Source of the DNA: Alcanivorax sp. DG881 | GTDB taxonomy: Bacteria; Pseudomonadota; Gammaproteobacteria; Pseudomonadales; Alcanivoracaceae | DNA: 64,000 bases | Assembly (NCBI RefSeq): GCF_000155615.1 | Contig: NZ_DS989915.1 | Coordinates: 3,369,725 to 3,433,724 of the forward strand | Direction of reading: 5' to 3' | Shown: positions 34-61,796 of the stretch, piece after piece | Numbering within the stretch: the stretch's first letter is position 1 | Layout of the letters: the number at the start of each line of letters is the position of its first letter | Notes under the pieces: model-generated | The model's database searches: none | What the model saw: only the letters and a program-made list of their open reading frames with translations | Told to the model about the DNA's origin: nothing | Program-made: the position numbers and the translations under genes

Positions 34-54
34 ACTATTCACTGTCCACTATCT
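34..54. repeat. heptamer-period repeat at 3' end of CDGSH gene
   Basis: Three consecutive 7-bp units, ACTATTC, ACTGTCC and ACTATCT, run across the stop codon of the minus-strand CDGSH gene, so the last residues (KIVDSE) and the TAG stop are written in repeat sequence. This is one of at least 13 such loci in the window. The word resembles those at 58233-58386 and 61703-61796. Confidence 0.6.
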
Positions 55-286
55 TCGAATGACTGCCATCGCAGATCATGCCTTTGCTGCTGTGTTTACA
101 GCCGCAGAAAAACACAATCCTGTCCCGCGTGGCGGTGTAGGGAACCGGAGCGAGGCCGGTGCCCTTGTGGCTGCCGTCGCAATAGGGCTGTGTCTGGCTC
201 AGGCCGCAGGCGCACCAGTAGACCGTATCGCCTTTTTTGACGGGTAGCGGGAACGGTACGGTGTGGGCGATGCGGGGGGCGTCCAT
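35..286 (-). CDS. CDGSH iron-sulfur domain protein
   Basis: An 83-residue protein with two CDGSH-type [2Fe-2S] motifs. The first (residues about 25-40) is canonical: Cys-Ala-Cys, a serine, a proline and CDGSH. The second (about 61-76) keeps the three cysteines and histidine of C-x-C...CDGSH but has Met-Ile where proline is usual. Members of this family bind redox-active [2Fe-2S] clusters through three Cys and one His; their bacterial role is mostly unknown. The start at 286 is chosen because a GGAGAG ribosome site lies just upstream; the frame stays open further upstream without a better site. It diverges from olsB. Its last six residues and stop lie in a heptamer repeat. Confidence 0.85.
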   Translation of the reverse strand: MDAPRIAHTVPFPLPVKKGDTVYWCACGLSQTQPYCDGSHKGTGLAPVPYTATRDRIVFFCGCKHSSKGMICDGSHSKIVDSE

Positions 287-413
287 GGTGCTCTCCAGGG
301 GGCTTTCGTTAACGTCAGGCGCATTTTTCGTGTGTCGCGCAAATGTCATGCAAATGTCACTGCCTTGCCACGGCGGCTGACGACACTGGCCGAAACTGCC
401 AGTGGAGTACACT

Positions 414-1280
414 ATGCTTGCGCAAGCTGCAGGAAAGATCAAAGCGTTAAGCCCGCAATTGAAAGGGGCCTTCGCCAAGCCGTTCGTGGCCACCGCCGAG
501 ATTCTTCGCTTTCCCCGTGATATGGCCGCCGAGAGGGTAGTTGACGCCCCGGCGCCGGGGCGTTTCACGGCGTATTTCACCCGGTCGCGCCGCGAGATTC
601 TGAAAATCCAGCGCCTGCGCTATCGCATCTTTTCCCAGGAATACGGCGCCAGTTTCAGTGCCCCATTCGGGCTCGACCGGGACCGCTTTGATCGTCACTG
701 CCTGCACCTGGTGGTGCGTGATAACCGCAACGGGGAAATCGTGGGTTACACCCGTGTGCTGCCTGGTGATCGCTTGCACCGGACCGGGGGTTTCTATTCC
801 AGCGGTGAATTTGATCTCACCATGCTGGGTCGACTGGATGGCAAGCTGGCAGAGATCGGCCGTACCTGTATCCACCCGGAACACCGCAACGGGGCCGTTA
901 TCAGTGTGCTGTGGGCGCGGCTGGCGCAGTACATGCTGGAAAACGATGTGCGCTACCTGCTGGGCTGCGCCAGTATCGCTCTGAGTGAAGGTTATAACGT
1001 GGCAGCGGTGAATCAGCGTATCCAGGCGCGCCACCTGAGCCAGGCAGGGCATCGCGTGCAGCCGCATCTGCGCTTGCAGGCGCTGCCAGGAGATGCCCAG
1101 GCGGATAGTGTGAAAATGCCTCCGCTGCTCAAGGCCTACCTGCGCATGGGGGCTCAAGTGTGCGGTGAACCGTGCTGGGACCCGGATTTTAACTGCCTGG
1201 ATTTCTTTGTGTTGATGGCGGTGGAGGACTTGCCCGCCCGTTATGTGCAGCACTTCATGCAGCCGGCCCAGGCGGTGTAA
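414..1280 (+). CDS. olsB: L-ornithine N(alpha)-acyltransferase OlsB (GNAT fold)
   Basis: A 288-residue protein of the OlsB/hemolysin-like acyltransferase family. By family knowledge it transfers a 3-hydroxyacyl group from acyl carrier protein to ornithine, giving lyso-ornithine lipid. Visible hallmarks are the N-terminal region with LKIQRLRYRIF, the central LAEIGRTCIHPEHRNG segment typical of the acyl-binding core, and a C-terminal DFNCLDFFVLM strand. The ATG at 414 follows GGAG by six bases; a GTG at 402 is possible but less well placed. It lies 50 bp upstream of an olsA-like acyltransferase in the same direction, the order also seen in Pseudomonas olsBA. Ornithine lipids are phosphorus-free membrane lipids that often rise under phosphate limitation; no Pho box was identified. 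Confidence 0.87.
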   Translation: MLAQAAGKIKALSPQLKGAFAKPFVATAEILRFPRDMAAERVVDAPAPGRFTAYFTRSRREILKIQRLRYRIFSQEYGASFSAPFGLDRDRFDRHCLHLVVRDNRNGEIVGYTRVLPGDRLHRTGGFYSSGEFDLTMLGRLDGKLAEIGRTCIHPEHRNGAVISVLWARLAQYMLENDVRYLLGCASIALSEGYNVAAVNQRIQARHLSQAGHRVQPHLRLQALPGDAQADSVKMPPLLKAYLRMGAQVCGEPCWDPDFNCLDFFVLMAVEDLPARYVQHFMQPAQAV

Positions 1281-1330
1281 AGCCGGTTGGCAATGAATCG
1301 TGGGCAGTTGGCGACTAACGGGCGGGATAG

Positions 1331-2125
1331 ATGAGCGAGATGAATCATAGCGCCAGCGTTTGCGCGTATTCCCAGGGCGGGCTCTGGCCGCAACTGCGCC
1401 GAGTGGGGCGGGTGATCCGCGTTGTACTCTATCTGTTGCGGGGTTTTGTGCTGGCGTTCTTGCTGGGGGCGTTCTGGTCTCCGTATCGGCCTGTGGTGCT
1501 GGCGGCGAAACAGCGTTGGTGCCGGCATTTTCTGCGTATCCTCGGGGTGGAGTTGACGGTCACGGGGAGCCGGGTGGAAGCCCCCGTGTTTCTGGTCAGC
1601 AACCATGTGTCGTGGCTGGATATTCCTGTGATTGCCAGCCAGCGGCATCTGTATTTTCTCTCCAAGGCGGAGGTGGGTGACTGGCCGTTGATCGGCACAC
1701 TGGCCCGGGCCATGGGGACCCTGTTTATCAAGCGCGGCAGTGGTGAGTCGGTTCGCAAGGCCCAGGAAATTGCCGGTCGCTTGCAGCAGGGGCACACGGT
1801 GCTGGTGTTCCCGGAAGGCACCACCACCGATGGCTCCAGCCTGCGCCGCTTTTTTCCGCAATTGTTTGATGCCCCCTTGCTGGCGGGCGTGCCGGTGCAA
1901 CCGTTAGCGGTACGCTACCTGGATAACATGGGCGCTCCGGACCGGGGCCTGGCCTTTATTGGTGACGATGAGTTTCATCATCACCTGTGGGCCATGTTGC
2001 TCCGCCAAAAAATCCGCGTTCGCCTGCACTTCTGTACGCCCCTGGATGGTGAAGGCATGGACCGCAAACAATTGTGTGCCCAAGCTTACGAACGGCTTGA
2101 GGGGCAATTGAAAGTTCAAAGTTGA
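1331..2125 (+). CDS. olsA: lyso-ornithine lipid O-acyltransferase OlsA (PlsC family)
   Basis: A 264-residue membrane-associated acyltransferase of the PlsC family. The catalytic HX4D motif is seen in NHVSWLD (about residue 97), and the glycerolipid acyltransferase motif in FPEGTTT (about 161). A hydrophobic segment (about residues 31-50) should anchor it. Position directly after olsB argues for the second step of ornithine-lipid synthesis, O-acylation of lyso-ornithine lipid, rather than general 1-acylglycerol-3-phosphate acylation; PlsC activity cannot be excluded from sequence. The C-terminus is odd: the last residues (LKVQS) and the TGA stop are encoded by a 7-bp tandem repeat that continues into the intergenic space. 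Confidence 0.8.
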   Translation: MSEMNHSASVCAYSQGGLWPQLRRVGRVIRVVLYLLRGFVLAFLLGAFWSPYRPVVLAAKQRWCRHFLRILGVELTVTGSRVEAPVFLVSNHVSWLDIPVIASQRHLYFLSKAEVGDWPLIGTLARAMGTLFIKRGSGESVRKAQEIAGRLQQGHTVLVFPEGTTTDGSSLRRFFPQLFDAPLLAGVPVQPLAVRYLDNMGAPDRGLAFIGDDEFHHHLWAMLLRQKIRVRLHFCTPLDGEGMDRKQLCAQAYERLEGQLKVQS

Positions 2126-2155
2126 AAGCTTAAAAGCGCAAGAACGTTCAACTTG
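2108..2155. repeat. heptamer-period repeat overlapping olsA stop
   Basis: Three exact 7-bp units TTGAAAG, TTCAAAG, TTGAAAG occupy 2108-2128. A short inverted arm (GTTCAACTTG) follows near 2146-2155. The array encodes the last codons and the TGA stop of olsA. It belongs to the same structural family as the other heptamer loci, with its own word. Confidence 0.65.
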
Positions 2156-2228
2156 TCTCTCGGCTCTCCCTGCCTGTCGTCTCGCTTTGTTGTAGCATTG
2201 GCGCATCAATTGCCCAGGACCGCTTTCC

Positions 2229-2795
2229 ATGACCCGCGCCAGTGAACTGAAAAAATCCGACGTTATCGAAGTCAACGGCACCCTGTATGCCATCCGCCAG
2301 ATTGAGGTGCAGTCGCCTTCTGCCCGGGGCGCGGCCACCTTGTATCGGGTGAAGGCCAGTGCGGTTGGCGGTGGTCCCAAGTTTGAAGAGCGCTTCAAGG
2401 GGGATGACGACGTGGCCACGGTGGAGCTGCAGCGCCGCCCGGTGCAGTTTTCCTACGTGGACGGGGATGACTACATCTTCATGGATAATGAGGATTTCTC
2501 CCAATACTTGCTCAAGCAGGAAGATATCAGCGATGAGCTGGCGTTCATCACGGAAGAAACCGAAGGGGTGTTGGCCCTGAGAGTGGAAGAATCGGTCATC
2601 GGCCTGGAGCTGCCGGCGTCGGTGGTACTGGAAGTGACTGAAACCACCCCGGCCATGAAGGCTGCGTCTGCATCCGCCCGCACCAAGCCAGCCACCCTGA
2701 ATACCGGCCTGGTAGTGCAGGTGCCGGAATATATCGTGGAAGGGGAAAAGGTGCGGGTGAATACCGCCGAACGTAAATTCATGTCCCGGGCCTGA
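2229..2795 (+). CDS. efpL: elongation factor P-like protein EfpL/YeiP
   Basis: A 188-residue protein with the three-domain EF-P layout: KOW-like domain I (about 1-65) and two OB folds. The loop reads [11 protein letters not shown] with arginine at residue 33, the position and residue typical of EfpL (formerly YeiP), where EF-P itself usually has Lys or Arg in a different loop. EERFKGDD after it is also characteristic. EfpL binds ribosomes stalled at proline-containing motifs and helps peptide bond formation; this is family knowledge. The ATG at 2229 follows AGGA with nine bases between. It stands alone, about 100 bp after olsA and 10 bp before the aminopeptidase gene. Confidence 0.93.
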
Positions 2796-2805
2796 TTGCC
2801 AGCAG

Positions 2806-3867
2806 ATGCGGTTATCTCCCCTGTGCAAGTTGCCTGCTGTCGCTGTGTTGCTGCTGTGCGGCGTTTTGGCGGGGTGTCAGGTGGGGTATTACGGCCAGGC
2901 GGTGAAAGGCCACTGGTCGCTGATGGGCAAGCGCGAGCCGGTGAGCACGGTGCTGGCGGATGCCAATACGTCGCCGGCACTGGCCGGCAAGTTGCGCTTC
3001 AGCCAGCAGGTCATCGCGTTTGCCGGTGAGGCCCTGTCGTTGCCGGCCGACGATGTCTACCACCAGTATGTGGCGCTGGAGCAGGATGCGGTGGTGTGGA
3101 ATGTGTTGGCGGCACCGGCATATTCCCTGGCACCGAAAACCTGGTGCTACCTGATGATTGGCTGTGTCAGTTACCGGGGGTATTTTGACAAGGGGCGTGC
3201 TACCCGCGAGGCGGAGGCCCTGGCTGAAGACGGGATGGACACCTTCGTGGGTGGCGCCATTGCCTACTCCACCCTGGGTTGGTTTGCCGACCCGCTGACC
3301 ACGCCCATGCTCGACCGATCCCGCCCGTCGCTGGCGCAATTGCTGATCCACGAGCTGGTGCACCGCAAGCTGTATATCAAGGATGACACCCGTTTCAATG
3401 AATCCCTGGCGACCCTGGTCGGCCGGGAGGGTGCAGTGGATTATTTTGCCCATAGCGGTGAGCCGCTGGCGGCGGACTACTGGGAGCAGCGCGAACAGGT
3501 GCAGGACGCCTTTATGGCCATTGTGCAGGCGACGCGTGGGGCCCTGAAAACACTGTATGCGTCGCAGCAGGATGAAGACGCGCTGGCGCGGGAGAAAACC
3601 CGTATCCTGCAGCAGGCCCGAGACCGCTTTGCCCGCGATAGCCAGGCGCAACCGGCCCTGAAAGCCTACGCGGGGTTTTTCGACGGGCGATTGAACAATG
3701 CCCGCCTTAACGGCGTCAGTGACTATAACGATTATGTGCCGGCCTTTGCCCGCCTGCTGGACCAGTGTCGGCGGGACTGGGGCTGCTTCTGGCAACAGGT
3801 GGATAACCTGGTGGCCATGAAGGATACGCAACGCAAACAGGCCCTGGAGGCACTCGCATGGAACTGA
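2806..3867 (+). CDS. lipoprotein zinc aminopeptidase (Aminopep family)
   Basis: A 353-residue lipoprotein. The signal peptide ends in LAGC with the lipidated cysteine at residue 24. HELVH at 182-186 is the zinc site and glutamate 199 in NESLA is a plausible third ligand. The overall pattern (YYGQA near the N-terminus, the zinc helix, then a long helical C-terminus) matches the predicted-aminopeptidase family often annotated as Aminopep. Substrate is unknown. The start is 10 bases after the efpL stop. Its 3' end overlaps the rhomboid protease gene by 10 bases, so the two are very likely co-translated, giving a small envelope-proteolysis unit. Confidence 0.82.
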   Translation: MRLSPLCKLPAVAVLLLCGVLAGCQVGYYGQAVKGHWSLMGKREPVSTVLADANTSPALAGKLRFSQQVIAFAGEALSLPADDVYHQYVALEQDAVVWNVLAAPAYSLAPKTWCYLMIGCVSYRGYFDKGRATREAEALAEDGMDTFVGGAIAYSTLGWFADPLTTPMLDRSRPSLAQLLIHELVHRKLYIKDDTRFNESLATLVGREGAVDYFAHSGEPLAADYWEQREQVQDAFMAIVQATRGALKTLYASQQDEDALAREKTRILQQARDRFARDSQAQPALKAYAGFFDGRLNNARLNGVSDYNDYVPAFARLLDQCRRDWGCFWQQVDNLVAMKDTQRKQALEALAWN

Positions 3868-5604: not shown

Positions 5605-5612
5605 GAGTGTTT

Positions 5613-8399: not shown

Positions 8400-8572
8400 T
8401 GCAGGAGTGAAGCGAATACGCCGCTGGTGGCGGGATAACCAGAGCATCGAGTCGCGAGAAGCGAGTTTCGAAAGGCAAAACCCGGAACCGGGGGTAAAGC
8501 CTGGTGATTTTCGCTTCTCGTAACTCGTTACTCGCAACTGGACTTATCGCGCCGCCAGCGACGCTCCTACAT
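8400..8572. repeat. nested inverted repeat: REP-like ends plus CGAG heptamers
   Basis: The outer ends are REP-like modules facing each other: 8400-8438 reads TGCAGGAGTG... to CGGGATAA, and the complement of 8544-8572 reads TGTAGGAGCG... to GCGATAA. Inside are heptamer arms: CGAGTCG, CGAGAAG, CGAGTTT, CGAAAGG (8448-8475) and TTCGCTT, CTCGTAA, CTCGTTA, CTCGCAA (8510-8537). A small CCCGG-AA-CCGGG hairpin lies at the centre. It sits between convergent dctM and the NYN gene, so it may also serve as a two-way terminator. Confidence 0.7.
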
Positions 8573-9348: not shown

Positions 9349-9443
9349 GAGCCATTCCTTTTCCTGCGATATCCTCAACATAACGGATTCGGCAGGGAAG
9401 CGACATGGGGTGAGCGAAACGGGCGCCGGTGGGGCGCTTGAGC

Positions 9444-9536
9444 CGCGCAGCGAGTGACGAGTTTCGAGTTACGAAAGGCAAAAAACAAAACCGGGATCTT
9501 TGGGAGGGCTTTCGAAACTCGCTTCCCGCGACCCGC
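9444..9536. repeat. inverted CGAG heptamer repeat
   Basis: The left arm 9451-9478 is CGAGTGA, CGAGTTT, CGAGTTA, CGAAAGG, preceded by a degenerate unit. The right arm 9509-9536 is CTTTCGA, AACTCGC, TTCCCGC, GACCCGC. The left arm continues with GCAAAA...ACCGGG, as does the left arm at 8448-8475, so these two loci share more than the heptamer word. It lies between the NYN promoter and the 3' end of the SDR gene. Confidence 0.65.
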
Positions 9537-10420: not shown

Positions 10421-11299
10421 TCAGGCGTTGCCGGGTGGGTTGTCTGGACCGAGCTGAAAAGGCGAAATAATCATGCTGCCGGAGTGTTCCCGGTGGTACT
10501 GCTCACGGGCTTTCCACACCTTGCCGTAGCGGTAGAACGGCACGGTGGGGTAGAGGTGATGGACCAGATGATAGTTCTGGTACATGAGAATCGGCGTGAG
10601 CAGCCACTCCTTGCCCATGCGCATCAGCGCGGTGGTGTTGGGGTTCTCATCCTGACGGCCCGTATGCGGGTAGTGCGGCAGCACCATGAACACCAGGCAC
10701 ATCAAGTAGAACGAAATGTAGGAGGGGATCAGCCACAGCATCAGCGCTTCGTAGGGCGCCCAGAGAAACAGGGCGGTCAGGGCGACGCCGGCCACGGCCA
10801 GTTCACGCCAGACTTCAGTCGGCTTCACGTTGGGCAGCACGTCCGGTTTGCGCAGGAAGTTGATCAGGTAAATGAAAGGCCAGAACCCCCACAGCGGCAT
10901 GGTCCACAGGCTGCTGGCCATCCAGTGATCCGGATCCTTCTCCGGGTCGTTGGCGAAACGGTGGTGGCGCATGTGCAGCAGACGGAACATTTTGCCCTTG
11001 CCAAAGGGCACGGCCACAAAGGTGGCAATGGAGAGGATCAGGTCGTTGTGCTCGGACTTCTGCGCCGCCGCCCGGTGGATGGCTTCATGGGCGGGGGTGA
11101 ACATGATGTAGCCGCCAATGCTGTTAATGATCAGGCCAACCCAGGCGGGCCACAGATCATTCAACACCATGACCCAGCTGAGGATGTTGGCACCGTGCGC
11201 GAGGATCATCAGGGTGACTGTGGGCCAGGCGATTTTGGGCGACACTTTCAGCCTGGCCAGTGTTTTCAGGGCGTCGCTATCGGTTGTTGTACTTGTCAT
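10421..11299 (-). CDS. membrane fatty acid desaturase / hydroxylase-type di-iron enzyme
   Basis: A 292-residue integral membrane protein with the three histidine boxes of the family: HEAIH (71-75), HMRHH (109-113) and HLVHH (244-248), eight histidines in all for a di-iron centre. Several hydrophobic segments flank the boxes. It should introduce a double bond or a hydroxyl into an acyl chain; the exact reaction (acyl-CoA, phospholipid or other) cannot be read from sequence. The ATG at 11299 follows GGGAGA. A 13-bp inverted repeat 23 bases upstream may be its operator. It heads a two-gene unit with the SDR. Confidence 0.87.
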   Translation of the reverse strand: MTSTTTDSDALKTLARLKVSPKIAWPTVTLMILAHGANILSWVMVLNDLWPAWVGLIINSIGGYIMFTPAHEAIHRAAAQKSEHNDLILSIATFVAVPFGKGKMFRLLHMRHHRFANDPEKDPDHWMASSLWTMPLWGFWPFIYLINFLRKPDVLPNVKPTEVWRELAVAGVALTALFLWAPYEALMLWLIPSYISFYLMCLVFMVLPHYPHTGRQDENPNTTALMRMGKEWLLTPILMYQNYHLVHHLYPTVPFYRYGKVWKAREQYHREHSGSMIISPFQLGPDNPPGNA

Positions 11300-11321
11300 G
11301 GCAGTCTCCCGCTTAGTCTGA

Positions 11322-11334
11322 AAACACAGTGTTT
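11322..11334. promoter_or_regulatory. inverted repeat upstream of desaturase
   Basis: AAACAC-A-GTGTTT is a perfect 13-bp inverted repeat about 23 bases upstream of the desaturase start, in the expected promoter region. It could be a repressor site controlling membrane fluidity genes. No matching regulator is identified from sequence alone. Confidence 0.4.
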
Positions 11335-11403
11335 ACCGTTGACAAGGAAAAGGTAAGAACCGAAATTGCCATCAGGGGGATAAAAAGTGACAAAGAACAG
11401 CAG

Positions 11404-11543
11404 CAAGCCTCAAGCTACAAGCTGCAACACGGTACAGGCCCTCGCACCAGCAGCACTGTGCTTGCGAATTCAGGTCTGGCGCGGGCACTGCCGCCGCATC
11501 CCGACCCCTTTCTCCCGCGTTGCAGCTTGTAGCTTGAGGCTTG
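11404..11543. repeat. perfect 25-bp inverted repeat of GCTTGnn heptamers
   Basis: The left arm 11404-11428 (CAAGCCT, CAAGCTA, CAAGCTG, CAAC) is the exact reverse complement of 11519-11543, whose units read GCTTGTA, GCTTGAG, GCTTG. The loop is 90 bases. The element follows the stop of the minus-strand AraC gene after 10 bases and lies upstream of the desaturase promoter. The perfect match of 25-bp arms suggests recent formation or active maintenance. Confidence 0.75.
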
Positions 11544-11553
11544 TCGCGTTGTT

Positions 11554-12549
11554 TTATTCCCGCCGGAAGCTGCCGGGGGTGGTGCCGAACCAGCGCTGGA
11601 AGGCGCGGCGGAAGCTGGCCACGTCGGTGTAGCCCAGATCTTCGGCCACGGCGGCCACGGTGTAGTGCGGCAGCCCGAGCAGTTGGGCGGCGCGGCGGCT
11701 GAGAGTCTGGTCACGGAGCTGCTGGAAGCGGGTGTTTTCCTGTTTGAGTTTGCGGATCAGGGTGCGTGGGCTCATGTGCAGCTGATCGGCCACGGTATCC
11801 AGGCTGGCCTTGCCATGGTGTTGATGCAGTAGCGCCAGCACCTGGTCGCTGACGGTGCCACGGTTGCGCAGTGCTTCCTGGCGGGCCTCGCATTGCTCGA
11901 TGGCGATCCACAGCAGGTCTCGATCATGGCTGGGCAAGGTTTCATCGCCGTAGCGGGCAGGCAATTTGATGGCCGTGTAAGCCGCGTCAAAGACCAGCCG
12001 GGTGCCGGGGAAGGTTTGTGCGTAACACTCCGCGTAGTCAGGGGCCGGGTAATTGAAATGGACTTCTCCCCCGTCAATCGATTTGCCGCGCAATACCACA
12101 TGGCAGGCGAACGCGGAGGCCATGACGGATTCGACCAGAAACTGCACGTTGTCATCCAGTGGGTAGGCGAATTCCTGTCGCAGCGTAATGGTGTCCTGCT
12201 GTTCTTCAAACACCGTGGTAAAGACTTGTGTGCGGGTGTTGATGAAGCGGGCAAACAACTGCATGGCATCGCGCAGGGTGGGGCTGGCCATGGCCGCCAT
12301 GCCCATGGGGCCGTGCATGGCGGGGAGGGCACGCAGGCCGGTTTGCAGTGCGATATCCGGGCGGTCGCTGAGCTGGCGGGCATTGCTGATTAACTGGCAG
12401 GCGCCGGGCCAGTCGATGAAGCCATCGCTGTGCTGCAGGGTGTCCACGTCCACCCCGGTATCGGCCACCAGCTTTTCCAGGCCAGCCTGATCCAGGCCCA
12501 GGGTCTGGGCAATCATGCGGCAGTAGGTCATGGCCAGGTCCGGTGTCAT
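11554..12549 (-). CDS. AraC family transcriptional regulator (OruR-like ligand domain)
   Basis: A 331-residue regulator. The N-terminal two thirds match the Arabinose_bd-type domain of the OruR group (HGPMGMAAMASPTLRDAM is typical), and the C-terminal about 100 residues hold two AraC helix-turn-helix motifs (SLDTVADQLHMSPRTLIRKLKQE and YTVAAVAEDLGYTDVASFRRAFQRWFG). Such regulators in hydrocarbon and lipid degraders often sense fatty or aromatic acids. Its ATG overlaps the TGA of the upstream tetR gene, so the two regulators are made together. Likely targets are the divergent DUF2236-SDR genes or the downstream desaturase-SDR pair; this is inference. Confidence 0.9.
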   Translation of the reverse strand: MTPDLAMTYCRMIAQTLGLDQAGLEKLVADTGVDVDTLQHSDGFIDWPGACQLISNARQLSDRPDIALQTGLRALPAMHGPMGMAAMASPTLRDAMQLFARFINTRTQVFTTVFEEQQDTITLRQEFAYPLDDNVQFLVESVMASAFACHVVLRGKSIDGGEVHFNYPAPDYAECYAQTFPGTRLVFDAAYTAIKLPARYGDETLPSHDRDLLWIAIEQCEARQEALRNRGTVSDQVLALLHQHHGKASLDTVADQLHMSPRTLIRKLKQENTRFQQLRDQTLSRRAAQLLGLPHYTVAAVAEDLGYTDVASFRRAFQRWFGTTPGSFRRE

Positions 12550-15403: not shown

Positions 15404-15431
15404 TGCATGCAGCGTGAAGCGTGTGGCGGCC
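15404..15431. repeat. GCGTG heptamer repeat
   Basis: The units TGCATGC, AGCGTGA, AGCGTGT, GGCGGCC have an exact 7-bp period, 15 bases after the SDR stop. The same words occur at 17081-17108, after acnA. No clear second arm is present. Confidence 0.5.
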
Positions 15432-15468: not shown

Positions 15469-15804
15469 TTAAGGGGGAATCAATGGGCCCTGATGAGCCC
15501 GGGGTATAACCACAGAGTGAGCGCAATGTGATTGGGTAGCTGAAGCGGGGTTCTCTTCAGCAATGGGATAAGTATAGGGGGCGTCTGCCGACCAACCCAC
15601 GGGAATGGCTCGACCGGTTTGATCAGATTAATTGATCAATGGGCGGAGCAGGGAGATTCAGGGCGCGCTCCGGTAATTCGTGTTGCCCAGAACGCATGGA
15701 GCCTGGGCTTTTCAGGTTTTGAATGAAAGCGTCAGTCGTCGGGCATCTGGCGCGCAGCGGTTGCCCGTGTTGCGTTCTGCGTGAGGCGTGTTGCGGTTCT
15801 TGAT
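15469..15804. other. gene-free interval with a TTGATCA direct repeat
   Basis: No convincing gene is visible. Two copies of TTGATCA (15619-15625 and 15632-15638) lie 13 bases apart in a locally AT-richer patch. They could be a regulator site, but no adjacent promoter is obvious because the flanking genes both point into this interval. Confidence 0.4.
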
Positions 15805-16756: not shown

Positions 16757-16854
16757 GCTACGAGCTACGAGCTACGAGCTACGAGCTACGAGCTACGAGC
16801 TACGAGCTACGAGCTACGAGCTACGAGCTACGAGCTACGAGCTACGAGCTACGA
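16757..16854. repeat. 14 perfect tandem copies of GCTACGA
   Basis: Fourteen uninterrupted copies of the heptamer GCTACGA occupy exactly 98 bp. Rotated, the unit is CGAGCTA, one base from the CGAGTTA unit found at 9451-9478. This is the only pure array among the heptamer loci. It lies upstream of the small secreted protein gene and should be prone to copy-number change by slippage. Confidence 0.95.
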
Positions 16855-17080: not shown

Positions 17081-17108
17081 TGCGTGTTGCATGAAGCGTG
17101 CAGCGTCT
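17081..17108. repeat. GCGTG heptamer repeat after acnA
   Basis: The units TGCGTGT, TGCATGA, AGCGTGC, AGCGTCT have a 7-bp period and start within a few bases of the acnA stop. A strong terminator hairpin follows at 17000-17027, so repeat and terminator lie side by side. Confidence 0.55.
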
Positions 17109-17113
17109 CTCGT

Positions 17114-19861
<2,748 letters not shown>

Positions 19862-20762: not shown

Positions 20763-21407
20763 ATGTCATCAGCCCTGGACTCTGATTATCCCCGTCGCGG
20801 TAATGCTTTCTCCCGGTCGCTTGCCCGCGGGTTTTTGCGCCTGGCAGGCTGGCGGGTGACCAACCCCATGCCGGCAGTGCCCAAGGCGGTGATTATCGGC
20901 GGGCCGCACACCTCCAACTGGGATGGTATCTATACGCTGGCGGCCATGATGCAGCTGGGTCTGGATGCTCACGTGATGATCAAAGACAGCGCCTTCAAGG
21001 GGCCGTTTGGGGCCATGCTGCGTTGGATGGGGGCGTTGCCCATTGCCCGGCACAAGGCGGGTGGTGTGGTTGAGCAGACCGTGGAGCAGTTCAATAGCCG
21101 CGACAAGCTGGTGATGGTGGTGGCGCCGGAAGGCACCCGGGGTGGGGCGACACAATGGAAGACCGGCTTCTACCGGATCGCCCAGAAGGCCGGTGTGCCG
21201 ATTGTGGTAGCCACCGCAGATTACCGCAAAAAGGAAATTACCTTTGCCCGTGTCATTGAGCCGTGTGGGGATGTGGAGAAGGATCTGGCCGAAATTTTTG
21301 AATGCTATGCGGCCATTCACCCGCGTCATCCGGACAAATTGTCTGCACCGTTGAAGGCCATTCGAGATAAAAAGAAGAGCGCTGGACGCCAAACGCCAAA
21401 CGCCTGA
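20763..21407 (+). CDS. PlsC-like glycerolipid acyltransferase
   Basis: A protein of about 214 residues with the acyltransferase HX4D motif in PHTSNWD (about 49-54) and VAPEGTRGG (about 118), as in the 1-acylglycerol-3-phosphate acyltransferase superfamily, small cytosolic-facing subgroup. It likely acylates a lysolipid or related acceptor; specificity is unknown. The start may be ATG 20763 or 20751; neither has a strong ribosome site. Unusually, the C-terminal residues GRQTPNA and the TGA stop are encoded by a 7-bp tandem repeat (nnACGCC), so this tail is probably not functional protein sequence. Confidence 0.82.
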   Translation: MSSALDSDYPRRGNAFSRSLARGFLRLAGWRVTNPMPAVPKAVIIGGPHTSNWDGIYTLAAMMQLGLDAHVMIKDSAFKGPFGAMLRWMGALPIARHKAGGVVEQTVEQFNSRDKLVMVVAPEGTRGGATQWKTGFYRIAQKAGVPIVVATADYRKKEITFARVIEPCGDVEKDLAEIFECYAAIHPRHPDKLSAPLKAIRDKKKSAGRQTPNA

Positions 21408-21418
21408 TGCCTGACGCG
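21384..21418. repeat. nnACGCC heptamer repeat overlapping a stop codon
   Basis: Five units with an exact 7-bp period: GGACGCC, AAACGCC, AAACGCC, TGATGCC, TGACGCG. The fourth supplies the TGA stop of the acyltransferase gene. The same words, inverted, occur at 48100-48176. Confidence 0.7.
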
Positions 21419-21532: not shown

Positions 21533-24500
21533 TCAGTTACAGGCGCTAGCGTTCGTATAGCTGCTATCCACCACATTATTGATCCACTGATCCATCAGCG
21601 CGGTGGCTTCGCCATGGGCAACGCTGCGGGCAATCGGTGGCATCATTTTCTGCGGATCATCTTCTGCGCTGAGACGGCAAGAGACGATGGAGCTGCCCGC
21701 GCTGCCGGGTACCAGCACATGCTGGCGTCCACAGGAGCCGCCGCCGGTGGCTGTGGGCTTCTTGCAGACGCCATAGCTGGCGTTCACATCGCGGAAGTGA
21801 TCCAGGTAATAACCGGTGTTGGACGCGGCGCCCTTGTCGTTGTGGCAGTGCTGACAGTTCACTTCCAGGTAGGCCCGCACACGGCTTTCGATATCCGCCG
21901 CTGAGTTGGCGGTTTCACCGCTGTCACCGGGCACATTCCAGCGTGGCAGATGCTCAATGTTGGTGGCCACCCCATTGCTGATGGTCAACTCCGGCACGCC
22001 GGTCAGAATCCCCAGATCTTTCCACTGCTTGATCTGGTTTACCGCCGGGAAACCGGCCTGACCGCTGGTGCCCATAAAGGCAGATTCCGCTTTGTAGGCA
22101 CGGTTCAGGTTACGCGGCTTGGGCCCAATGGGGGCACTGCCAGCCGGCTGGTCATCATTGGCGTGACAGGTCACGCACTGGTTGCCGTTAGGAATGGTGT
22201 AACCATCGGTGCTGCCGGTGAGCAGGGTGTTGGAATCCGCATCACGGTAATGCCAGGCAACCGACGCGGTGCCCCCGTTCATGGCCAGGCGCGCAACCCT
22301 CTTGCCGTCTTCTTCCTCCCAGATGTAGGGCAGGCCTACCCAGACGGCGCTGTCCTGGCTGTTCCTGCGTTTGATCAGCAAGCGGGTTTCTACCGGTACT
22401 TCGGTGCCCTGGCTTTCGTCGGTGAAAGCAAAGGTTTTGGCAATCACGGTGCCTTCCGGGAAAACGATGCTGCCGTTAACGTTGTTGCCGTCCTGGCCAT
22501 CGCTATACACCGCTTGCTCGCCGGGTGGTACAAACACGACTCGATACTTGGTTGAGTAATCAGAGAACAGCTTGGTGTTCAGCACAAAAGGCTGGCCGCT
22601 CTCGTTTGGTGTGCTACGTGGGTCTTGCGCATCGGCAAACAGGTTGTACTGATCCAGCGTCGGGCAGTTGTAGTTCAGTGCTTCGCGGTTGATCTCGCCG
22701 TCTGCAACGTCTGCACTACAGTAGAACTCTACAACTTCATCCGAAGGTGCGGGGTCGAACTCACCGCTGGGCTCGAAAGGCGGAATGTCTACCCGCGGCA
22801 GTGTTTCCAGTACTTTGCCGAAACGGGCCTGGCAATCATGCTCGGACATGTCGGTGTCGGAGGCGATATTCAGTAACCCTTCAATGGCCCCTTTGATGCC
22901 TGCAGGATTGAGAATGGAGAAGTCCTGCTCGGCAATGGCCAGTACCAGCTCCAGGCCATCGGTGCCGTGGAAGTTCAGGTAGGGGGCGCTGTCGCTGTTC
23001 AGCTCGTTATCGTGGATACAGGTGCCCCACTCCGGCAGGATGCGGTCGCCGTTTTCGTTGAACTTGTAGGCGTTGTAGTGACAGCTGGGGTTCGGGTGCT
23101 CGTTGGTATGAATGGGCTTGCCGCTGTCCCACATGGGAACCGGATCGCCATTGTTGTCCACCGGGTAGGGGCAGTCTTCATCCAGATCGTCACGCAGACC
23201 GTCCCAGACAATATGCGCGCCTTTACCCTGATTCAGAAGGTTAGGCAGGCTGCCCAATACTTCCAGAAGATTCGGAGAAAGCTCCGGCAGGTTTTTCAGG
23301 CCGATCAGGGTCGGCAGTACGCTTTCTACTTCGCCGTTGGCCAGTTTTTCCAGGTCCGGTGGCGGCAGATCGTAACCGGAGTTTTTCATCACATTGTTAT
23401 GGATGTGAAGCCCCTCGGTATAGGGGTCGATTTTTTTATCGGCGGTGTTGTTCTTGCCATCAATCAGCTCATAGCTGACGTGGATCACCGCCGCGGTGCT
23501 GTGATCTTCGAAGGTGTTGTTAAGGACTTCGATGTTGTCGTAACCCAGGGTAATAAAACCTGTGCCACGGGGCACCACTGACACCAGACCGCTGTGGGCA
23601 AAGTTGTAGGTGTTGTTGTTGCGGGCCACGTTGTTGATCATCACCGAGGTATCACCGTAACGGGTGATGTTTTCCAGGTCGTAGATCAGGAAGGCGCCGG
23701 TATTACACTCGGCAATGTTGTTGTCGTACTCGCCGCCCTGCACGTTTTCGATTTCAAAACCCATGACGTTATAAGCGGCACGGCTATTACGAATGATGGC
23801 GGTGTTGGTCTGGCCAACATAGATGCCTGCATCGCTGGCGCCGATGGATTCACTGTCTTCTACCAGAATGTTCTCTGACTCTACCGGGTAGATACCGTAG
23901 CGGCCGCTGGCGGAACTGGGGGTGTAATCCGGGCTGGAATCTCCCTCGTTGTAGGGGGGCGCGGTACAGGATACATGGATCTTTTCCGCGTAGTTATCTG
24001 CGGTGATCGGTTCGCCGCCACCGGACCACATGGCACGTACGCCACGCAGGGTGCCCCACTTTACGCTCTTCAATTTGAAGGCGTCGCCGGGGGAATCGAG
24101 GATGGTCAGGTCTTCCACGGTAATGCCGCGAATGTTCAGGGCTTCCAGACCGGTCACGTTGACACTGTCTTTGAACGACAAAATGGTTTCGTCTTTGCCG
24201 CAACCTTTGATTAACACATCTTCGGTGGCCTGGATCAAGATACCCTGGTCCAGTTCGAAGTAGCCGCACTCGAATTGCAGGGTGTCTTTTGGACGCAGCT
24301 GGACCATGGCGTTGACCATGTCTTCGGTGGCATCTTCACCGGGGCTGATGAGGAAGGTTCGGCCAACGGTATCGGGGGGCGTGGTGTCGCCACCGTCACC
24401 GCCATCGCCTCCATCATCGCCGCCGTCACCACCGTCATCCCCTCCATCGCCGCCGTCATCTCCACCGTCGCCGCCATTGTCGGGATTGTTGGGTGTGGCG

Positions 24501-34992: not shown

Positions 34993-35064
34993 CAGCTAGC
35001 ACGCTCCACGCAACACGCTGGCACGCAACAAAGCATGGTGCGTGTAGCGTGCTGCGTGTCAGCG

Positions 35065-46291: not shown

Positions 46292-46345
46292 TACGTGGGG
46301 CGACTCAACAGAGATTGCTCGCTACATTTTCTGATCGCCACAGTA

Positions 46346-46380
46346 AGCGCCCGGCTCAATTGAGTTGGGCGTTTTTCTTT
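46346..46380 (+). terminator. intrinsic terminator of ELWxxDGT gene
   Basis: AGCGCCC, then a palindromic CTCAATTGAG centre, then GGGCG followed by TTTTTCTTT. It is a canonical Rho-independent terminator 55 bases after the stop codon. Confidence 0.85.
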
Positions 46381-46406
46381 GGGAGTGCTGAGGGTTTTCT
46401 ACAAAC

Positions 46407-46547
46407 TGAATTGGCACCAGTTCGCTAGACACCTTTCAGTCATCCAAAATGGCAACCAGAGAGGTATCTATGAGCAGCAAGTATTGCCAAGAAGAATTCA
46501 AGCTTCAGTCAGCCTGCTAGGTGGCTAATCGTGGAGACAGGCAATAA
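46407..46547 (+). mobile_element. IS3-family remnant (left end and orfA start, decayed)
   Basis: The sequence from about 46407 (TGAATTGGCACCAG) through CTAGACACCT and GGTATCT resembles the left end of IS3-family elements. An ATG at 46470 opens MSSKYCQEEFKLQSAC then TAG, and the same frame continues as VANRGD. This aligns with a typical orfA start of the form FKxEAVKQVADRG, with the glutamine codon after AVK turned into the stop. The rest of the element is gone. It is a relic of a past insertion beside nrdB. Confidence 0.7.
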
Positions 46548-46675
46548 GGAAGGGGGAAGAGGTGCGCGTAGATTGTGGCGAAGAGCTGCTGAGGTAGAAG
46601 TGTGAGGGCGTTTAGTTGCACGTTTGCAGCTAAGTGCGATCTCCTAATGGCAAGAAATCTGTAAGTGATTGATAT

Positions 46676-46716
46676 AAAAGAGGGCACGTTACCGTCTAAT
46701 GGCAAACGTGCCCTCT
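46676..46716 (-). terminator. intrinsic terminator of nrdAB
   Basis: A perfect 12-bp stem AGAGGGCACGTT / AACGTGCCCTCT around a 14-base loop, then TTTTATAT on the minus strand. It lies 27 bases after the nrdB stop. TCTAATGGCAA occurs in the loop and again just after the stem. Confidence 0.8.
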
Positions 46717-46742
46717 CTAATGGCAACTCACACCTTTTTTCG

Positions 46743-48099: not shown

Positions 48100-48176
48100 C
48101 TGATGCTGGATGCCTGACGCTGGACGCTTAAAGAAAGGCGTGCGTTGAGCGTCCGGCATCTGGCGTCCGGCGTTTA
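48100..48176. repeat. inverted GACGC heptamer repeat between nrdA and nrdB
   Basis: The left arm 48100-48127 is CTGATGC, TGGATGC, CTGACGC, TGGACGC. The right arm 48142-48176 is GCGTTGA, GCGTCCG, GCATCTG, GCGTCCG, GCGTTTA. The arms are inverted with a 14-base loop. The right arm includes the TAA stop of nrdA. As it separates two genes of one operon, the hairpin could change the NrdA:NrdB ratio. Confidence 0.75.
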
Positions 48177-57126: not shown

Positions 57127-58226
57127 ATCAGGATCTCCACCAGGCAGAAAAACTGACGCTGAGTGAAAAGCGCCTGATGCAACGCCATAGCCGTTCGGCC
57201 ATGGCGATTATGGCCATGCATACCTTGCTCTGTGTGGTCTATTTTCAACTGGGTTATATGCACATCGCGCTGCCGGAAGCGCTGGTGCTGGTGTCGTTGA
57301 TCTGGATTTCCCTGTTGGCGTACCAACTGTTGATGGCAACCGGTGTTACCTTGAATCTTCGTGAGCCAAGCCTGTCGCTGCCGTTGATTCTGTATTTCAC
57401 CGGGGTGTTCATGGTGTCGGGGTATTACGTGGATGAGTTTCGACTCAGCGTGGTGACCCTGTTTTTTGCGGCGTTATTGATGGTGTCGTTCCGCCTGAGT
57501 GGCAAAGTGATGATTGCGGTGGCGTTTCTGGCCAGTGCGGCCTATGCGCTGATGCTGTGGGTGGCACTGATGGATCGCTGGGTGCAGTTGAGCCTGTCGG
57601 TGGAGCTGTTGCAATGGCTGGTGTTCGCCATGATTTCGGTCAGCTTTGCGGTTACCGGTGGGGGCGTAAACCGCCTGCGGAATGCGCTGGCAGAAAAAAA
57701 CCGGGAGCTGGCCAACGCGGTGGAAAAGGTGCGGGAAATGGCCATCCGTGATGATCTCACGGGGTTGTTTAATCGTCGCCACCTACTGGAAATTCTGGAG
57801 CGCCAGCGCGCCCTGTCTGACGGCAAGGGGGTGCCATTTGCCGTGTGCTACGTGGACCTGGATCACTTCAAGAAGATCAACGACCGGCACGGTCATGACT
57901 GGGGCGACCGGGTGCTGCGCCAGTTTTCCGAGCTGGCGTTATCGGGCATGCGTGATGGTGACTACTTTGGTCGCCTGGGCGGGGAAGAGTTCTTGTTGGT
58001 GTTGCCGCAAAGTGATGCCCACGGCGCCCTGCTGGTGGCTGAACGTCTGCGTCAGCGTTGGCGTGAACAGCGTTTCGATGCCCAGGGCGGCCCGGCCACT
58101 GTCAGCCTGTCTGTGGGTGTGGCGGATTATCGGGATGGCGAAAGTGTCGATGAGCTGCTTAACCGGGCCGATCAGGGTTTGTACAAGGCCAAGTCCGGGG
58201 GGCGGGATCAGAGTCAGGTGGCATGA
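57123..58226 (+). CDS. membrane diguanylate cyclase (GGDEF) with I-site
   Basis: A 367-residue protein, also with about six N-terminal hydrophobic segments (25-180), then a GGDEF domain with GGEEF at 286-290. Here the I-site is intact, RDGD at 277-280, so c-di-GMP feedback is expected. The N-terminal halves of the two proteins align in place: EPSLSLPLI matches EPSMIMPLM and YYVDEFRLSVVTLFFA matches LVVDQVRLCIMLIFFA. The start overlaps the previous stop (ATGA), so both are made from one mRNA. One enzyme with feedback and one without in the same membrane could give a graded c-di-GMP output. Confidence 0.9.
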   Translation: MNQDLHQAEKLTLSEKRLMQRHSRSAMAIMAMHTLLCVVYFQLGYMHIALPEALVLVSLIWISLLAYQLLMATGVTLNLREPSLSLPLILYFTGVFMVSGYYVDEFRLSVVTLFFAALLMVSFRLSGKVMIAVAFLASAAYALMLWVALMDRWVQLSLSVELLQWLVFAMISVSFAVTGGGVNRLRNALAEKNRELANAVEKVREMAIRDDLTGLFNRRHLLEILERQRALSDGKGVPFAVCYVDLDHFKKINDRHGHDWGDRVLRQFSELALSGMRDGDYFGRLGGEEFLLVLPQSDAHGALLVAERLRQRWREQRFDAQGGPATVSLSVGVADYRDGESVDELLNRADQGLYKAKSGGRDQSQVA

Positions 58227-58232
58227 AAAGGC

Positions 58233-58386
58233 AGTTAATAGTTAATAATGAATAATTAATAGTTACGCGGAAAAAGTTGGTGGTTTTGAACCGCAAGAGG
58301 CCGCGTCCTGAGCTTGGGCGCGGCCTCCTGGTATGTGCAGACAACGATTAGTCTGGTCGCGAGTTATTAACTATTCATTATTAATT
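58233..58386. repeat. inverted AGTTAAT heptamer repeat with enclosed terminator
   Basis: The left arm 58233-58267 is AGTTAAT, AGTTAAT, AATGAAT, AATTAAT, AGTTACG. The right arm 58359-58386 is GCGAGTT, ATTAACT, ATTCATT, ATTAATT. The loop holds the strong GC hairpin at 58297-58327. The right arm includes the last codons (SINNE) and stop of the ABC ATPase gene. Confidence 0.75.
58297..58327. terminator. terminator-type hairpin between convergent genes
   Basis: The stem GAGGCCGCGTCC / GGGCGCGGCCTC with a 7-base loop. It is closely similar to the acnA terminator stem at 17000-17027, including CTCYTGG after it. No long T-run is adjacent. Confidence 0.55.
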
Positions 58387-59511: not shown

Positions 59512-60420
59512 TCAATGCTGCCCGGTGAGCAGGAATTCCAGCAGGGCTTTCTGGGCGTGCAAGCGGTTTTCGGCTTCGTCCCACACCACGGCGCGAGGGT
59601 CGTCCATCATTTCATGACTGACTTCCTCGCCGCGGTGGGCTGGCAGGCAGTGCATGAACAGCGCATCCGGGTCGGCCCTGTCCATCAACTCCGGGGTGAC
59701 CTGATAACCGTCAAAGGCGTTCAGGCGTGTTTGCTGTTCGTCTTCCTGCCCCATGGACGCCCACACATCGGTGACGACCAGGTGAGCGCCCTGCACGGCG
59801 GTGGCCACGTCCGGCTCCAGGCTGACCCGGTCCGGGTAACGGCCCAGCAGATCGCTGTCCGGGGTGAAGCCATCCGGGCTGCTGATCACCAGTTCGAAAT
59901 CAAACTGGTTGGCGGCGTTGATGTAGCTGGCACACATGTTGTTGCCATCGCCGACCCACACCACTTTCTTGCCCTGAATGCTGCCGCGGTGCTCCACATA
60001 GGTCTGCATGTCGGCCAGCAACTGGCAGGGGTGAAAGTCGTCGGTGAGGGCGTTGATCACCGGTACCGCAGAGTGGTCGGCAAACGTCTGCAGGGTGGCG
60101 TGGTCAAAGGTGCGAATCATCACCGCGTCGACCATGCGTGACAGTACCCGGGCGGAATCCTCGATCGGTTCGCCGCGGCCCAGCTGGGTGTCACGGGGTG
60201 ACAGGAAAATGCTGGAACCACCGAAATGGGTCATCGCCACTTCGAAGGAAACACGGGTGCGGGTGGATGATTTTTCGAAAATCATGCCCAGCGTTTTGCC
60301 CTGCAGTGGCTCGTGGTGCTGACCATTGCGCAGCATGGTTTTCAGCTCGATGGCGCGCTGAATCAGGTAGCCGAGCTCATCCGGAGTGAGGTCGGTGAGG
60401 GTCAGGAAATGACGGGTCAT
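59512..60420 (-). CDS. argF: ornithine carbamoyltransferase ArgF
   Basis: A 302-residue ornithine transcarbamylase, which makes citrulline from ornithine and carbamoyl phosphate in arginine synthesis. SSTRTR (carbamoyl phosphate site), HPCQ and [11 protein letters not shown] (ornithine site) are all present. Its ATG overlaps the TGA of argD by four bases, so argD and argF are co-translated. It is an anabolic-type sequence in an anabolic context. The upstream leader carries a terminator-like structure (see 61631-61675). Confidence 0.96.
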
Positions 60421-61601
60421 GCGACCTCCTGCTCGTCGGCAAAACGGTGGATCAGCGTCGACAGGGTGCCCACCAGGTGCTGCATTTCCGCCTGGCTGAT
60501 CACCAGTGGCGGCAGTAGCCGTACTACGGAACCGGCGGTGACATTGATCAGCAGGCCGGCGTCGCGGGCCCGGTTGACCAGTTCGGCACAGGGGCGATCC
60601 AGCTGGATGCCCAGCATCAGGCCTTTTTGGCGAATTTCGGTGACCATGGGCAGATCGGAAAACGCCTGCAGAAAGGCGTCTTTCAACCAGCTGCCTTTAT
60701 CGGCCACGCCGTCGATGATGTCGTCGGTGAGAGTGTTCACCACCGCCAGGGCCGTCGCGCAGCCCAGCGGGTTACCGCCGTAGGTGCTGCCGTGGTTACC
60801 GGGGCCGAAAACACCTTCAGCCTTGCCGGCCACCAGGCAGGCGCCGATGGGGAAGCCGTTGCCCAGGCCTTTGGCGGTGGTCAGTACGTCCGGGGTGATG
60901 CCGGCGCCCAGGCAGGCAAAGTAGTCCCCGGTGCGGCCGTTGCCGGACTGGATTTCATCCAGCATCAGCAGCCAGTCATTGCGGTCGCATAGGGTGCGCA
61001 GGCCGGCCAGGTAATCGTTGGCGGGGATGTGGATACCGCCTTCGCCCTGTACCGGTTCTACCAGTACGGCGACGATATCGTGATTGTCAGCCAGGGCTTC
61101 CACCGCTGCCAGATCGTTGAACGGCACACGGATGAAGCCGTCCAGCAGGGGCGCAAAGCCTTCCTGCACCTTGGCATTGGCGGTGGCGGACAAGGTCGCC
61201 ATGGTGCGGCCATGGAAGCTGCCTTCCATGACGATCACGGTGGGGCGCGCAATCTGTTTGCGCGAGCCGTACAGGCGGGCAATCTTGATGGCGGCCTCAT
61301 TGGCCTCCGCGCCGGAGTTGGAGAAAAATACGTTCTCCATGCCGCTCAGCTCGCACAGGCGCTGGGCCAGGGATTCCTGGGCGGGAATGCGGTACAGGTT
61401 GGAGGTGTGCATCAGCTGCCCGGCCTGTTCGGCCAGGGTGCGGGTGACTGCCGGGTGGCAGTGGCCCAGGTTGCACACGCCAATCCCGGAGATGGCATCC
61501 ATGTATTTGTGGTCGTTTTCATCGTACAACCACACGCCCTCGCCCCGCACGAAAGCCACTGGCTGGCGCGCGTAGGTGGGAATCAAAAATTGCTGGCTCA
61601 T
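60417..61601 (-). CDS. argD: acetylornithine aminotransferase ArgD
   Basis: A 394-residue PLP enzyme of class III. The cofactor lysine is in [14 protein letters not shown], and [12 protein letters not shown] and [14 protein letters not shown] are typical. It converts N-acetylglutamate semialdehyde to N-acetylornithine, and often also acts as succinyldiaminopimelate aminotransferase. It is the first gene of the argD-argF unit. The start at 61601 has CAGGG directly upstream. A hairpin with a T-run lies 54-74 bases upstream on the coding strand. Confidence 0.95.
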
Positions 61602-61630
61602 TACCCTGACTCGTTAAAGCGAATTCGTCT

Positions 61631-61675
61631 GTTTTGGCATGACCAAAACAAAAAACGGCAGCTGTTAGGCTGCCG
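61631..61675 (-). promoter_or_regulatory. possible attenuator in argD leader
   Basis: On the minus strand, CGGCAGC-CTAACA-GCTGCCG (61675-61656) is followed by TTTTTTGTTTT, a canonical intrinsic terminator, and then by a second hairpin GTTTTGG-TCATG-CCAAAAC (61649-61631). The T-run overlaps the second stem. No other minus-strand gene lies upstream, so any argD transcript starting further upstream must pass it. Attenuation or a leader-ending function is inferred. Confidence 0.5.
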
Positions 61676-61702
61676 GGAACCCCCGATAATAGCGCACATT
61701 TC

Positions 61703-61796
61703 AGTGAATAGTTAACACCCTGCATGGATTGGCGTTAGGCTTGTTTGCCTCAAGGGTTAATGGTTTTAGCTATTAACTATTCACTGTTAGCTATTG
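61703..61796. repeat. inverted heptamer repeat between argD and hyuB
   Basis: Left: AGTGAAT, AGTTAAC (61703-61716). Right: GGTTAAT, GGTTTTA, GCTATTA, ACTATTC, ACTGTTA, GCTATTG (61755-61796), all at a 7-bp period. The word is the one used at 34-54 and 58233-58386. It lies in a divergent promoter region, nine bases before the hyuB start, unlike most loci. TGAAT half-sites here could be mistaken for ArgR boxes. Confidence 0.7.

Follow-up and report, generated by a model that had tools for sequence, protein, structure and literature searches.

In cyanobacteria, the short tandemly repeated repetitive (STRR) heptamers form intergenic direct arrays of one word. The present work deals with heptad elements of Alcanivorax sp. 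DG881, recognised in a stretch of 64,000 nucleotides (contig NZ_DS989915.1, positions 3,369,725 to 3,433,724), which as a whole is called the window below. These elements are non-coding palindromes of about 75-160 nt with about four heptads per arm, the second arm being the reverse complement of the first, and their interior often carries a hairpin that is terminator-like or resembles the repetitive extragenic palindromic (REP) sequences. They agree with bacterial heptamer arrays of the STRR kind in period and location only, most of them not being uniform head-to-tail copies of one word.

In Xanthomonas, one report (PMC4692102) describes GGGAATC/GGGANTN heptamers with fixed and variable positions, four units being commonest, and with 70 and 75 inverted pairs in two species. 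They are intergenic, lie close behind the upstream open reading frame and occur mostly between the same genes, with differing sequence, in related species (PMC4692102). The Alcanivorax arrays are like them in having about four units, inverted pairs and a stop-proximal position, whereas the Xanthomonas repeats are one family of G-quadruplex formers and about six words, none with GGG, are present here; in Alcanivorax, moreover, words are replaced, hybrids occur and the elements frequently enclose a terminator-like hairpin (PMC4692102). The initial annotation had put the loci forward as the best candidate for an undescribed system; "undescribed" was too strong, since inverted pairs of four-unit heptad arrays had already been reported from Xanthomonas (PMC4692102).

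The Beggiatoaceae TAACTGA repeats form direct one-word arrays, many of them upstream of starts, with one indirect repeat in the genome studied (PMC4679880); they share with the Alcanivorax elements the intergenic heptads and the patchy occurrence across distant bacteria, and are unlike them in having one word and direct arrays. Geobacter metallireducens has 3-5 tandem units, which in the main classes measure 7 or 8 nt, in opposite-strand pairs at variable distance (PMC2700814). The likeness to these pairs lies in the tandem short paired units and in the insertion sequences near some of them; the sequences differ, and the Geobacter pairs are read there as regulator sites (PMC2700814). With the REP doublets called REPINs (PMC3116915) the elements share two conserved inverted ends, a variable spacer, an extragenic and dispersed location and the lack of coding capacity. 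Their ends, however, are heptad runs and not palindromic REP sequences, and there is no cognate transposase gene between or beside those examined (PMC3116915). Miniature inverted-repeat transposable elements (MITEs) and terminal inverted-repeat miniature elements (TIMEs) are likewise short non-coding inverted-repeat elements with variable middles; for the heptad elements, unlike these, no target-site duplication was found among those examined and no parent transposon was found, no systematic search for one having been made. No description from Alcanivorax was found in the open-access literature; subscription papers were mostly outside the search, so that absence is unproven.

The Alcanivorax elements are dispersed, share sequence within families and lie mostly behind stop codons. 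We consider it an evenly balanced proposition that they are a population of non-coding palindromic elements spread by some copying activity and remodelled by template switching. By such a route arms, either alone or together with their half of the element, would be copied elsewhere in a REPIN- or MITE-like manner, and so, on occasion, would whole elements. Template switching during replication at the hairpin would homogenise the arms, invert the interiors and make hybrid or mosaic elements, slippage would lengthen some arrays (GCTACGA, 3 versus 14 copies), and the location behind genes would reflect the tolerance of elements there.

Period, words and location of the heptad arrays

Self-matching at a given lag was scored with +1 for a match and -1 for a mismatch. 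In the whole 64-kb window 16 segments matched themselves at lag 7 with a score of at least 9, compared with a mean of 2.0 and a maximum of 4 in windows shuffled in 30-nt blocks (n=40), and with 2, 0, 1, 3, 2 and 2 segments at the control lags 4, 5, 8, 10, 11 and 13. The period of 7 bp that the initial annotation had named at 13 places was recovered at 12 of them, which hold 15 of the 16 scored segments, and fell below a score of 9 at 34-54; an array of score 9 at 15766-15795 was absent from that list. Two inverted arms at eight loci was a fair description, since by eye seven loci have clear arm pairs (8448, 9444, 11404, 34993, 48100, 58233 and 61703) and the one at 2108 has a very short second arm. 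Tandem Repeats Finder reported just the more regular arrays of the window.

The window sits in a genome of 3.80 Mb, which was sampled by the window, its surroundings and 20 stretches of 20 kb, about 575 kb free of N. Sixteen of these stretches were placed along the chromosome regardless of arrays, and the F family (see below) is over-counted because the other four were selected for holding GCTACGA arrays. Genes were called by a simple codon model made for this analysis, so that gene ends are approximate and some arrays counted as coding may overlap gene ends. The genome-wide intergenic excess at lag 7 that had been predicted was present: 75 arrays scored at least 11 (N excluded), against 0-3 at eight control lags (1, 0, 2, 0, 2, 3, 1 and 0 at lags 4, 5, 8, 10, 11, 13, 16 and 17). 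Coding arrays of this score numbered 9 at lag 7 and 0-3 at the control lags. Intergenic bases matched at a rate of 0.2957 for lag 7 and of 0.2932 for lag 14, compared with 0.2692-0.2797 at lags 2, 4, 5, 8, 10, 11 and 13 and 0.2763-0.2872 at lags 3, 6, 9 and 12, all values including runs of N, which raise every lag; in coding DNA the base match had no lag-7 signal (0.2466). The heptad observation is real.

Six word families were distinguished, A (AGTTNAA), B (ARTTRAY), C (CGAGTNN), D (GACGCNN), E (CACGCNN) and F (AGCTACG). Among 107 intergenic arrays of score at least 9, 95 fitted one of the six words at 80% or better, while letter-permuted words fitted a mean of 34 and a maximum of 62 (60 draws); since the words were picked from the same data, this fit is a clustering and not a prediction. 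Uniform head-to-tail copies of one word belong mainly to the F family, most other arrays being a core with variable letters. When neighbouring arrays were compared without regard to their words, 26 of 31 pairs were inverted, one was direct and four were undecided. Both arrays could be assigned in 24 neighbouring pairs less than 220 nt apart, and 19 of these had the same word (4.7 expected from shuffled labels, maximum 12). All 19 were inverted with one polarity, the same word form always standing on the left. The other five were hybrids, for example a GCTACGA array facing a TTNAACT array, and one hybrid was not inverted.

Among gaps of 30-1500 nt, arrays were present in 20 of the 50 that are convergent, in 42 of the 217 that are tandem and in 6 of the 60 that are divergent. 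In the tandem gaps 43 of 58 arrays were closer to the upstream stop; the median array lay 21.5 nt from this stop and 133 nt from the following start. As a cause of the period of seven, stop codons in every reading frame were considered. Arms closed in all three frames numbered 14 outside-in versus 2 inside-out of 52 in the own genome, and 23 versus 12 of 66 in the viral contigs treated below, search words excluded. As the C, E and F words are mostly without stops, this explanation is not general.

The heptad features of the window are listed below, with the strand where one was assigned.

34-54, minus strand: probable decayed right arm of the B family (ARTTRAY), with TCGCGACG at 13-20 as its inner edge; score below 9
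2108-2154, plus strand: AGTTNAA (A) left arm (2108-2134, score 12) and short TTCAACTT second arm, overlapping a gene end
8448-8539: CGAGTNN (C) element, two inverted arms, REP-like inverted sequences on the flanks
9440-9536: C family element with two inverted arms
11404-11432, plus strand: left arm CAAGCTN, 28 of 29 positions equal to the reverse complement of the right arm
11433-11514: interior, homologous to the NORP25 interior in inverted orientation
11515-11543, minus strand: right arm, shared with NORP25, whose left arm is of the AGTTNAA type
15405-15428: CACGCNN/GCGTGNN (E) array, score 9
15766-15795: E array, score 9
16757-16854, plus strand: 14 exact GCTACGA units (F family); three units in NORP25 at the same place
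17081-17115: GCGTGNN array behind a GGCCGCG terminator-like hairpin
21386-21417: GACGCNN/ACGCCNN (D) array over a gene end, score 17
34993-35058: E family, inverted arms (right arm 35033-35058)
48102-48173: D family, inverted arms; 74 of 76 bases the same in the sister genome
58233-58265, plus strand: B family left arm, immediately after a stop codon
58297-58327: GAGGCCGCG..CGCGGCCTC terminator-like hairpin within the 58233 element
58365-58386, minus strand: right arm of the B family, which overlaps the convergent gene at its end
61703-61796: B family arms; 48 of 48 compared bases identical in the sister genome

The C-type elements at 8448-8539 of the window and at 3640-3733 of locus L024 are nested between inverted REP-like CGCTGGCGGCGCGAT sequences.

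Shared sequence and dispersal of the elements

The initial annotation had held that the copies share period and layout but no sequence, and this is refuted by the word fit (95 of 107), by the BLAST relatives of the 58233 element and by an identical 30-mer. The 58233 element (about 155 nt) gave 71 BLAST segments in its own genome (G000), itself included, and 50, 64 and 7 in the relatives G007, G008 and G015; these segment numbers are not copy counts, and at most 40 candidates were scored per genome. Since the element is palindromic, many of these places were matched in both orientations. The longer matches had 68-82% identity. Three successive TTNAACT units occurred in all 17 genomes of the genus, the own genome included (1-410 overlapping matches; 0-13 for the reversed control), and in three of five genomes of the genus g3, with 10, 62 and 176 matches where the control gave at most 17. 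The 35 other genomes searched had no match.

The 30-mer arm AGTTGACAGTTGATAGTGGACAGTTGACAG, searched with one mismatch tolerated and with C or T permitted at the seventh base of the units, had matches in 15 of the 22 genomes from two genera and up to 76 arms per genome. Its exact form is present in at least 12 genomes, two genera being represented, and the own genome has three copies with one mismatch; 30-mer scanning of 274 genomes of the class gave the own genome as the sole match. Plasmid carriage found no support in PLSDB, where the one element searched had no match. Twenty AGTTGACAGTTGATAGTGGACAGTTGACAG places were fetched, chosen mostly for both arms being listed, and 19 of them were two-armed (B2 elements). 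The arms were exact in 32 of 38 cases, partly as a result of how the places were chosen. Among the half-interiors of these elements 36 of 703 pairs exceeded the 99.9% shuffle level, where about 0.7 would be expected; some of the relations cross orientation (the right half of L168 equals the left half of L174), and part of the relatedness is a common edge just inside the arm. Matches of two halves were seen in 6 of 171 element pairs, L168 and L172 standing in opposite orientation. A REP-like motif occurred in 6 of the 19 interiors, and a GGCCGCGCCC-like terminator-like hairpin with up to 3 mismatches in 13 of them, this count covering the hairpin itself. The arms of the B2 elements are conserved where the interiors are not. 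Because of the 30-mer arms and the half-interior matches, arms and half-elements appear to travel, closely related whole interiors being few.

If the origin were purely local, as the inference of the initial annotation would have it in its strong form, each place would have arisen independently by 7-nt slippage and template switching near gene-end hairpins, with nothing dispersed. This would agree with the copy number of a uniform array differing between near-identical strains (14 versus 3), with arrays in which the word changes without loss of register (L010 10975; the 54112 boundary in G008) and with the mostly unrelated interiors of same-word elements. Heptanucleotides are also said to have been the most abundant class of long repeats in most genomes of a survey by Mrazek in 2007 (as cited in PMC4679880). 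We hold a purely local origin to be unlikely, since at least 12 genomes share an identical 30-mer whose units carry position-specific differences, and this, like the full-length relatives of the 58233 element, requires copying. Nor are heptads a general tendency, because 40 other Gammaproteobacteria held 8 lag-7 arrays of score at least 12 in 721 kb compared with 66 in 579 kb here; only 7 of the 40 genomes had a lag-7 array, and the other lags gave 1 to 4. The common layout noted earlier is confirmed, and the families also share polarity. The data do not force the earlier inference of a shared mechanism in place of spread; several spreading families with local remodelling fit better.

Selection on binding sites was weighed as well. 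Were each heptad the site of a nucleoid or regulatory protein, selection would keep the arms and words, and the families would correspond to paralogous proteins. This would suit elements whose units are mostly of one word, whose arms face each other with one polarity and are conserved where the interiors are not, and similar paired sites are annotated as regulator sites in Geobacter (PMC2700814). Selection alone, however, would need to build one 30-mer many times; the stop-proximal location and the rarity in divergent gaps (6 of 60) ill suit a promoter regulator, and words are swapped at one site between sister strains. Protein binding seems an improbable origin of the set.

Movement of the elements as REPINs by the Y1 transposase (the REP-associated tyrosine transposase, RAYT) already in the genome would be in line with inverted conserved ends around a variable spacer, with the lack of target duplication and with the distribution of Y1 genes, which 21 of the 22 genomes from the two genera carry, none being found in G015, where arrays are few. 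We regard it as very improbable and rejected the link, for heptad arms stood on both sides of the gene in none of the 11 Y1 neighbourhoods scanned, and of the 14 relatives that lack the A arm, 6 do have Y1. At locus L134 two short arrays, with scores of 9 and 8, stand to one side of the gene, in L141 a D array lies more than 1 kb off, and the 330-nt flanks of seven Y1 genes hold other repeats or none. Since no examined transposase gene is flanked by heptad arms, the elements do not, as far as tested, qualify as REPINs, although they work like a population of these. As a separate observation, the long Y1 genes (L125, L133, L134 and L135) have a GGTCAGGTCT-like sequence or its complement near both ends, and the short Y1 gene in L132 is unlike them, with GTGGGAGC-type repeats nearby.

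Arm pairs of the AGTTGACAGTTGATAGTGGACAGTTGACAG type 1.4 kb apart were seen at loci L151 and L152 of G029, from another genus. An autonomous parent was considered at these loci and rejected: they hold an insertion with HTH_Tnp_1 and rve genes (compared with Pfam for L152), which is bounded within the interior by ends of its own. It is one insertion sequence in two copies (L151 3240-4500, L152 1960-3200) inside heptad elements, which suggests that heptad elements are landing sites for insertion sequences.

Replacement and proposed remodelling at fixed gene boundaries

Whole elements are replaced at some fixed gene boundaries. Different words at one boundary in related strains, as the initial annotation had envisaged, were found when orthologous boundaries were compared. 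The boundary 58226-58371 has two heptad arrays in 11 of 12 genomes (G004 has none above the threshold), the word being AGTTAAT here, AGTTGAC in the sister genome G007 and AATTGAT in G003, and most array-bearing window boundaries with orthologues vary across genomes in presence or word. The comparison with G007 covered 82 kb, with long blocks 92-94% identical and one 422-nt block at 89%. Seven of 15 array boundaries differed and eight were alike (74 of 76 and 159 of 162 bases in two of them), one of the eight lying in possibly coding GC-rich DNA and one being partly unreadable. At boundary 58230, 155 nt here stand in place of 159 nt in G007 with the flanking bases unchanged, and at 93174 the left arm is kept while the interior and the right arm are different in G007.

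At 58226-58371 the arms match well as complements in 10 of 12 genomes despite the differing words, and such a result would also be given by RNA 3'-end structures, bidirectional terminators or stabilisers of mRNA 3' ends, in which pairing is selected. The preference of the arrays for convergent gaps and stop-proximal positions and the terminator-like hairpin in 13 of 19 B2 elements point the same way. However, no match at the Rfam gathering score was present in the window, the variable letters show no agreement across the arms of the A elements of G008, the folding of the A interiors is barely stronger than that of shuffled sequence (mean z -1.1; 3 of 29 below -2), and the period of seven is left unexplained. 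A three-way-junction RNA for the A elements was rejected on the same folding result. As an origin of the whole set RNA structure is quite unlikely; some copies probably act as terminators in both directions.

Turning back to copying with template switching, the element within 11299-11554 was compared with the metagenome-assembled genome NORP25, which keeps the right arm and has another left arm, of the AGTTNAA type. The NORP25 interior aligns to the window as the reverse complement at 76 of 93 columns (z 17), versus 53 of 98 (z 2.9) in forward orientation, and in the window 28 of 29 positions of the left arm (11404) agree with the reverse complement of the right arm. Template switching between inverted repeats gives rise to arm homogenisation and spacer inversion, and in yeast the two are described in one joint event (PMC8604942). 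At this one locus the inverted interior and the rebuilt arm would bear that known signature. At 16757 the window has 14 GCTACGA units and NORP25 has 3.

Several results weigh against spreading with remodelling. The inverted interior is a single case, and its partner NORP25 is a metagenome bin. The interiors of eleven A elements, taken from 460 kb of G008, have little in common: 3 of 55 pairs exceed the null, and the best score amounts to a quarter of the length. This is unexpected under whole-element copying; these interiors are of constant length, 95-102 nt in 10 of 11. Variable letters of the A arms agree at 0.39 within and 0.43 between elements in G008, and the coupling of the B arms is slight (p about 0.016, 8 elements). 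Purifying selection may act on the arms. A target-site duplication of at least 3 nt was found in none of the 19 B2 and none of the 11 A elements, and the comparison with MITEs failed because of this. No gene was found between the arms as part of an element, no systematic search having been made. A whole-element donor for the G007 58230 element was also looked for: among the matches listed in 11 genomes no near-identical one was present, the best relative having 82% identity over 163 nt. Among the boundaries inspected there was no clean empty site with a precise junction.

The roughly six coexisting words, the inverted four-unit arms and the word replacement between sister strains make the frequency of heptamers among the long tandem repeats of bacteria a testable matter. 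About twelve genomes allow one gene boundary to be compared, and in a near-identical pair the interior is inverted and an arm rebuilt. If the elements do spread, they would be a frequent source of new gene ends and terminators.

Heptads in viral contigs and separate repeats of the window

In a collection of viral contigs three of the words gave 5, 61 and 22 stretches with widely differing GC, and the word AGTTAACAGTGAATAGTTAACAG had no match there. The reversed-pattern control hit 30 contigs; it is no clean control for the 61 matches, because it is a heptad word itself and overlaps when N = C. In 115 viral loci, those of the control pattern included, 477 lag-7 arrays scored at least 13, versus 4-84 at lags 5, 6 and 8-13. 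Of 114 neighbouring pairs in them 55 were inverted, 28 direct and 31 undecided, a weaker bias than in the own genome. Read outside-in, the inverted arms had AGT in 66 versus ACT in 3 of 104 cases (39 versus 3 of 66 without the search words), and AGT exceeded ACT in 15 contigs versus 1 of 21, with five undecided and the search words excluded. Purine-rich arms in this direction numbered 87 versus 16, or 54 versus 12 without the search words. The heptad-bearing contigs with inverted pairs span GC 0.34-0.63. Since the contigs were selected by heptad patterns, the AGT polarity is a lead and not a survey. The contig L189, which is of low GC and has many heptad arrays, carries a T-box-like leader and so presumably points to a Firmicutes host.

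These results raise the tentative and rather doubtful possibility of a cross-phylum class of copy-spreading palindromes, in which A-purine-T and four free letters, read outside-in, would be repeated about four times, one activity acting on many words. The heptads of cyanobacteria, Xanthomonas and Beggiatoaceae would be members of this class, and their words fit. A random heptamer, for its part, obeys the A-purine-T rule in roughly a third of cases, and the D, E and F words here are without A-purine-T.

A smaller excess was present in the viral loci at lag 8, with 43 arrays in the 61 A-pattern loci and 54 in all 115 at a higher score, and it recalls the octamer repeats of Geobacter.

Two further repeats of the window stand apart from the heptad elements. 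Imperfect overlapping tandem repeats of 18-33 nt at 24387-24472 lie inside a long gene, have the coding period and are unrelated to the heptads. The other is a separate dispersed repeat of 135 nt at 46406-46540, which has no match in the sister genome G007; its copies are 77-81% identical in G000, G008, G014 and G016, with two at contig ends in G014, and in the window it adjoins inverted repeats at 46345-46374 and 46669-46726.

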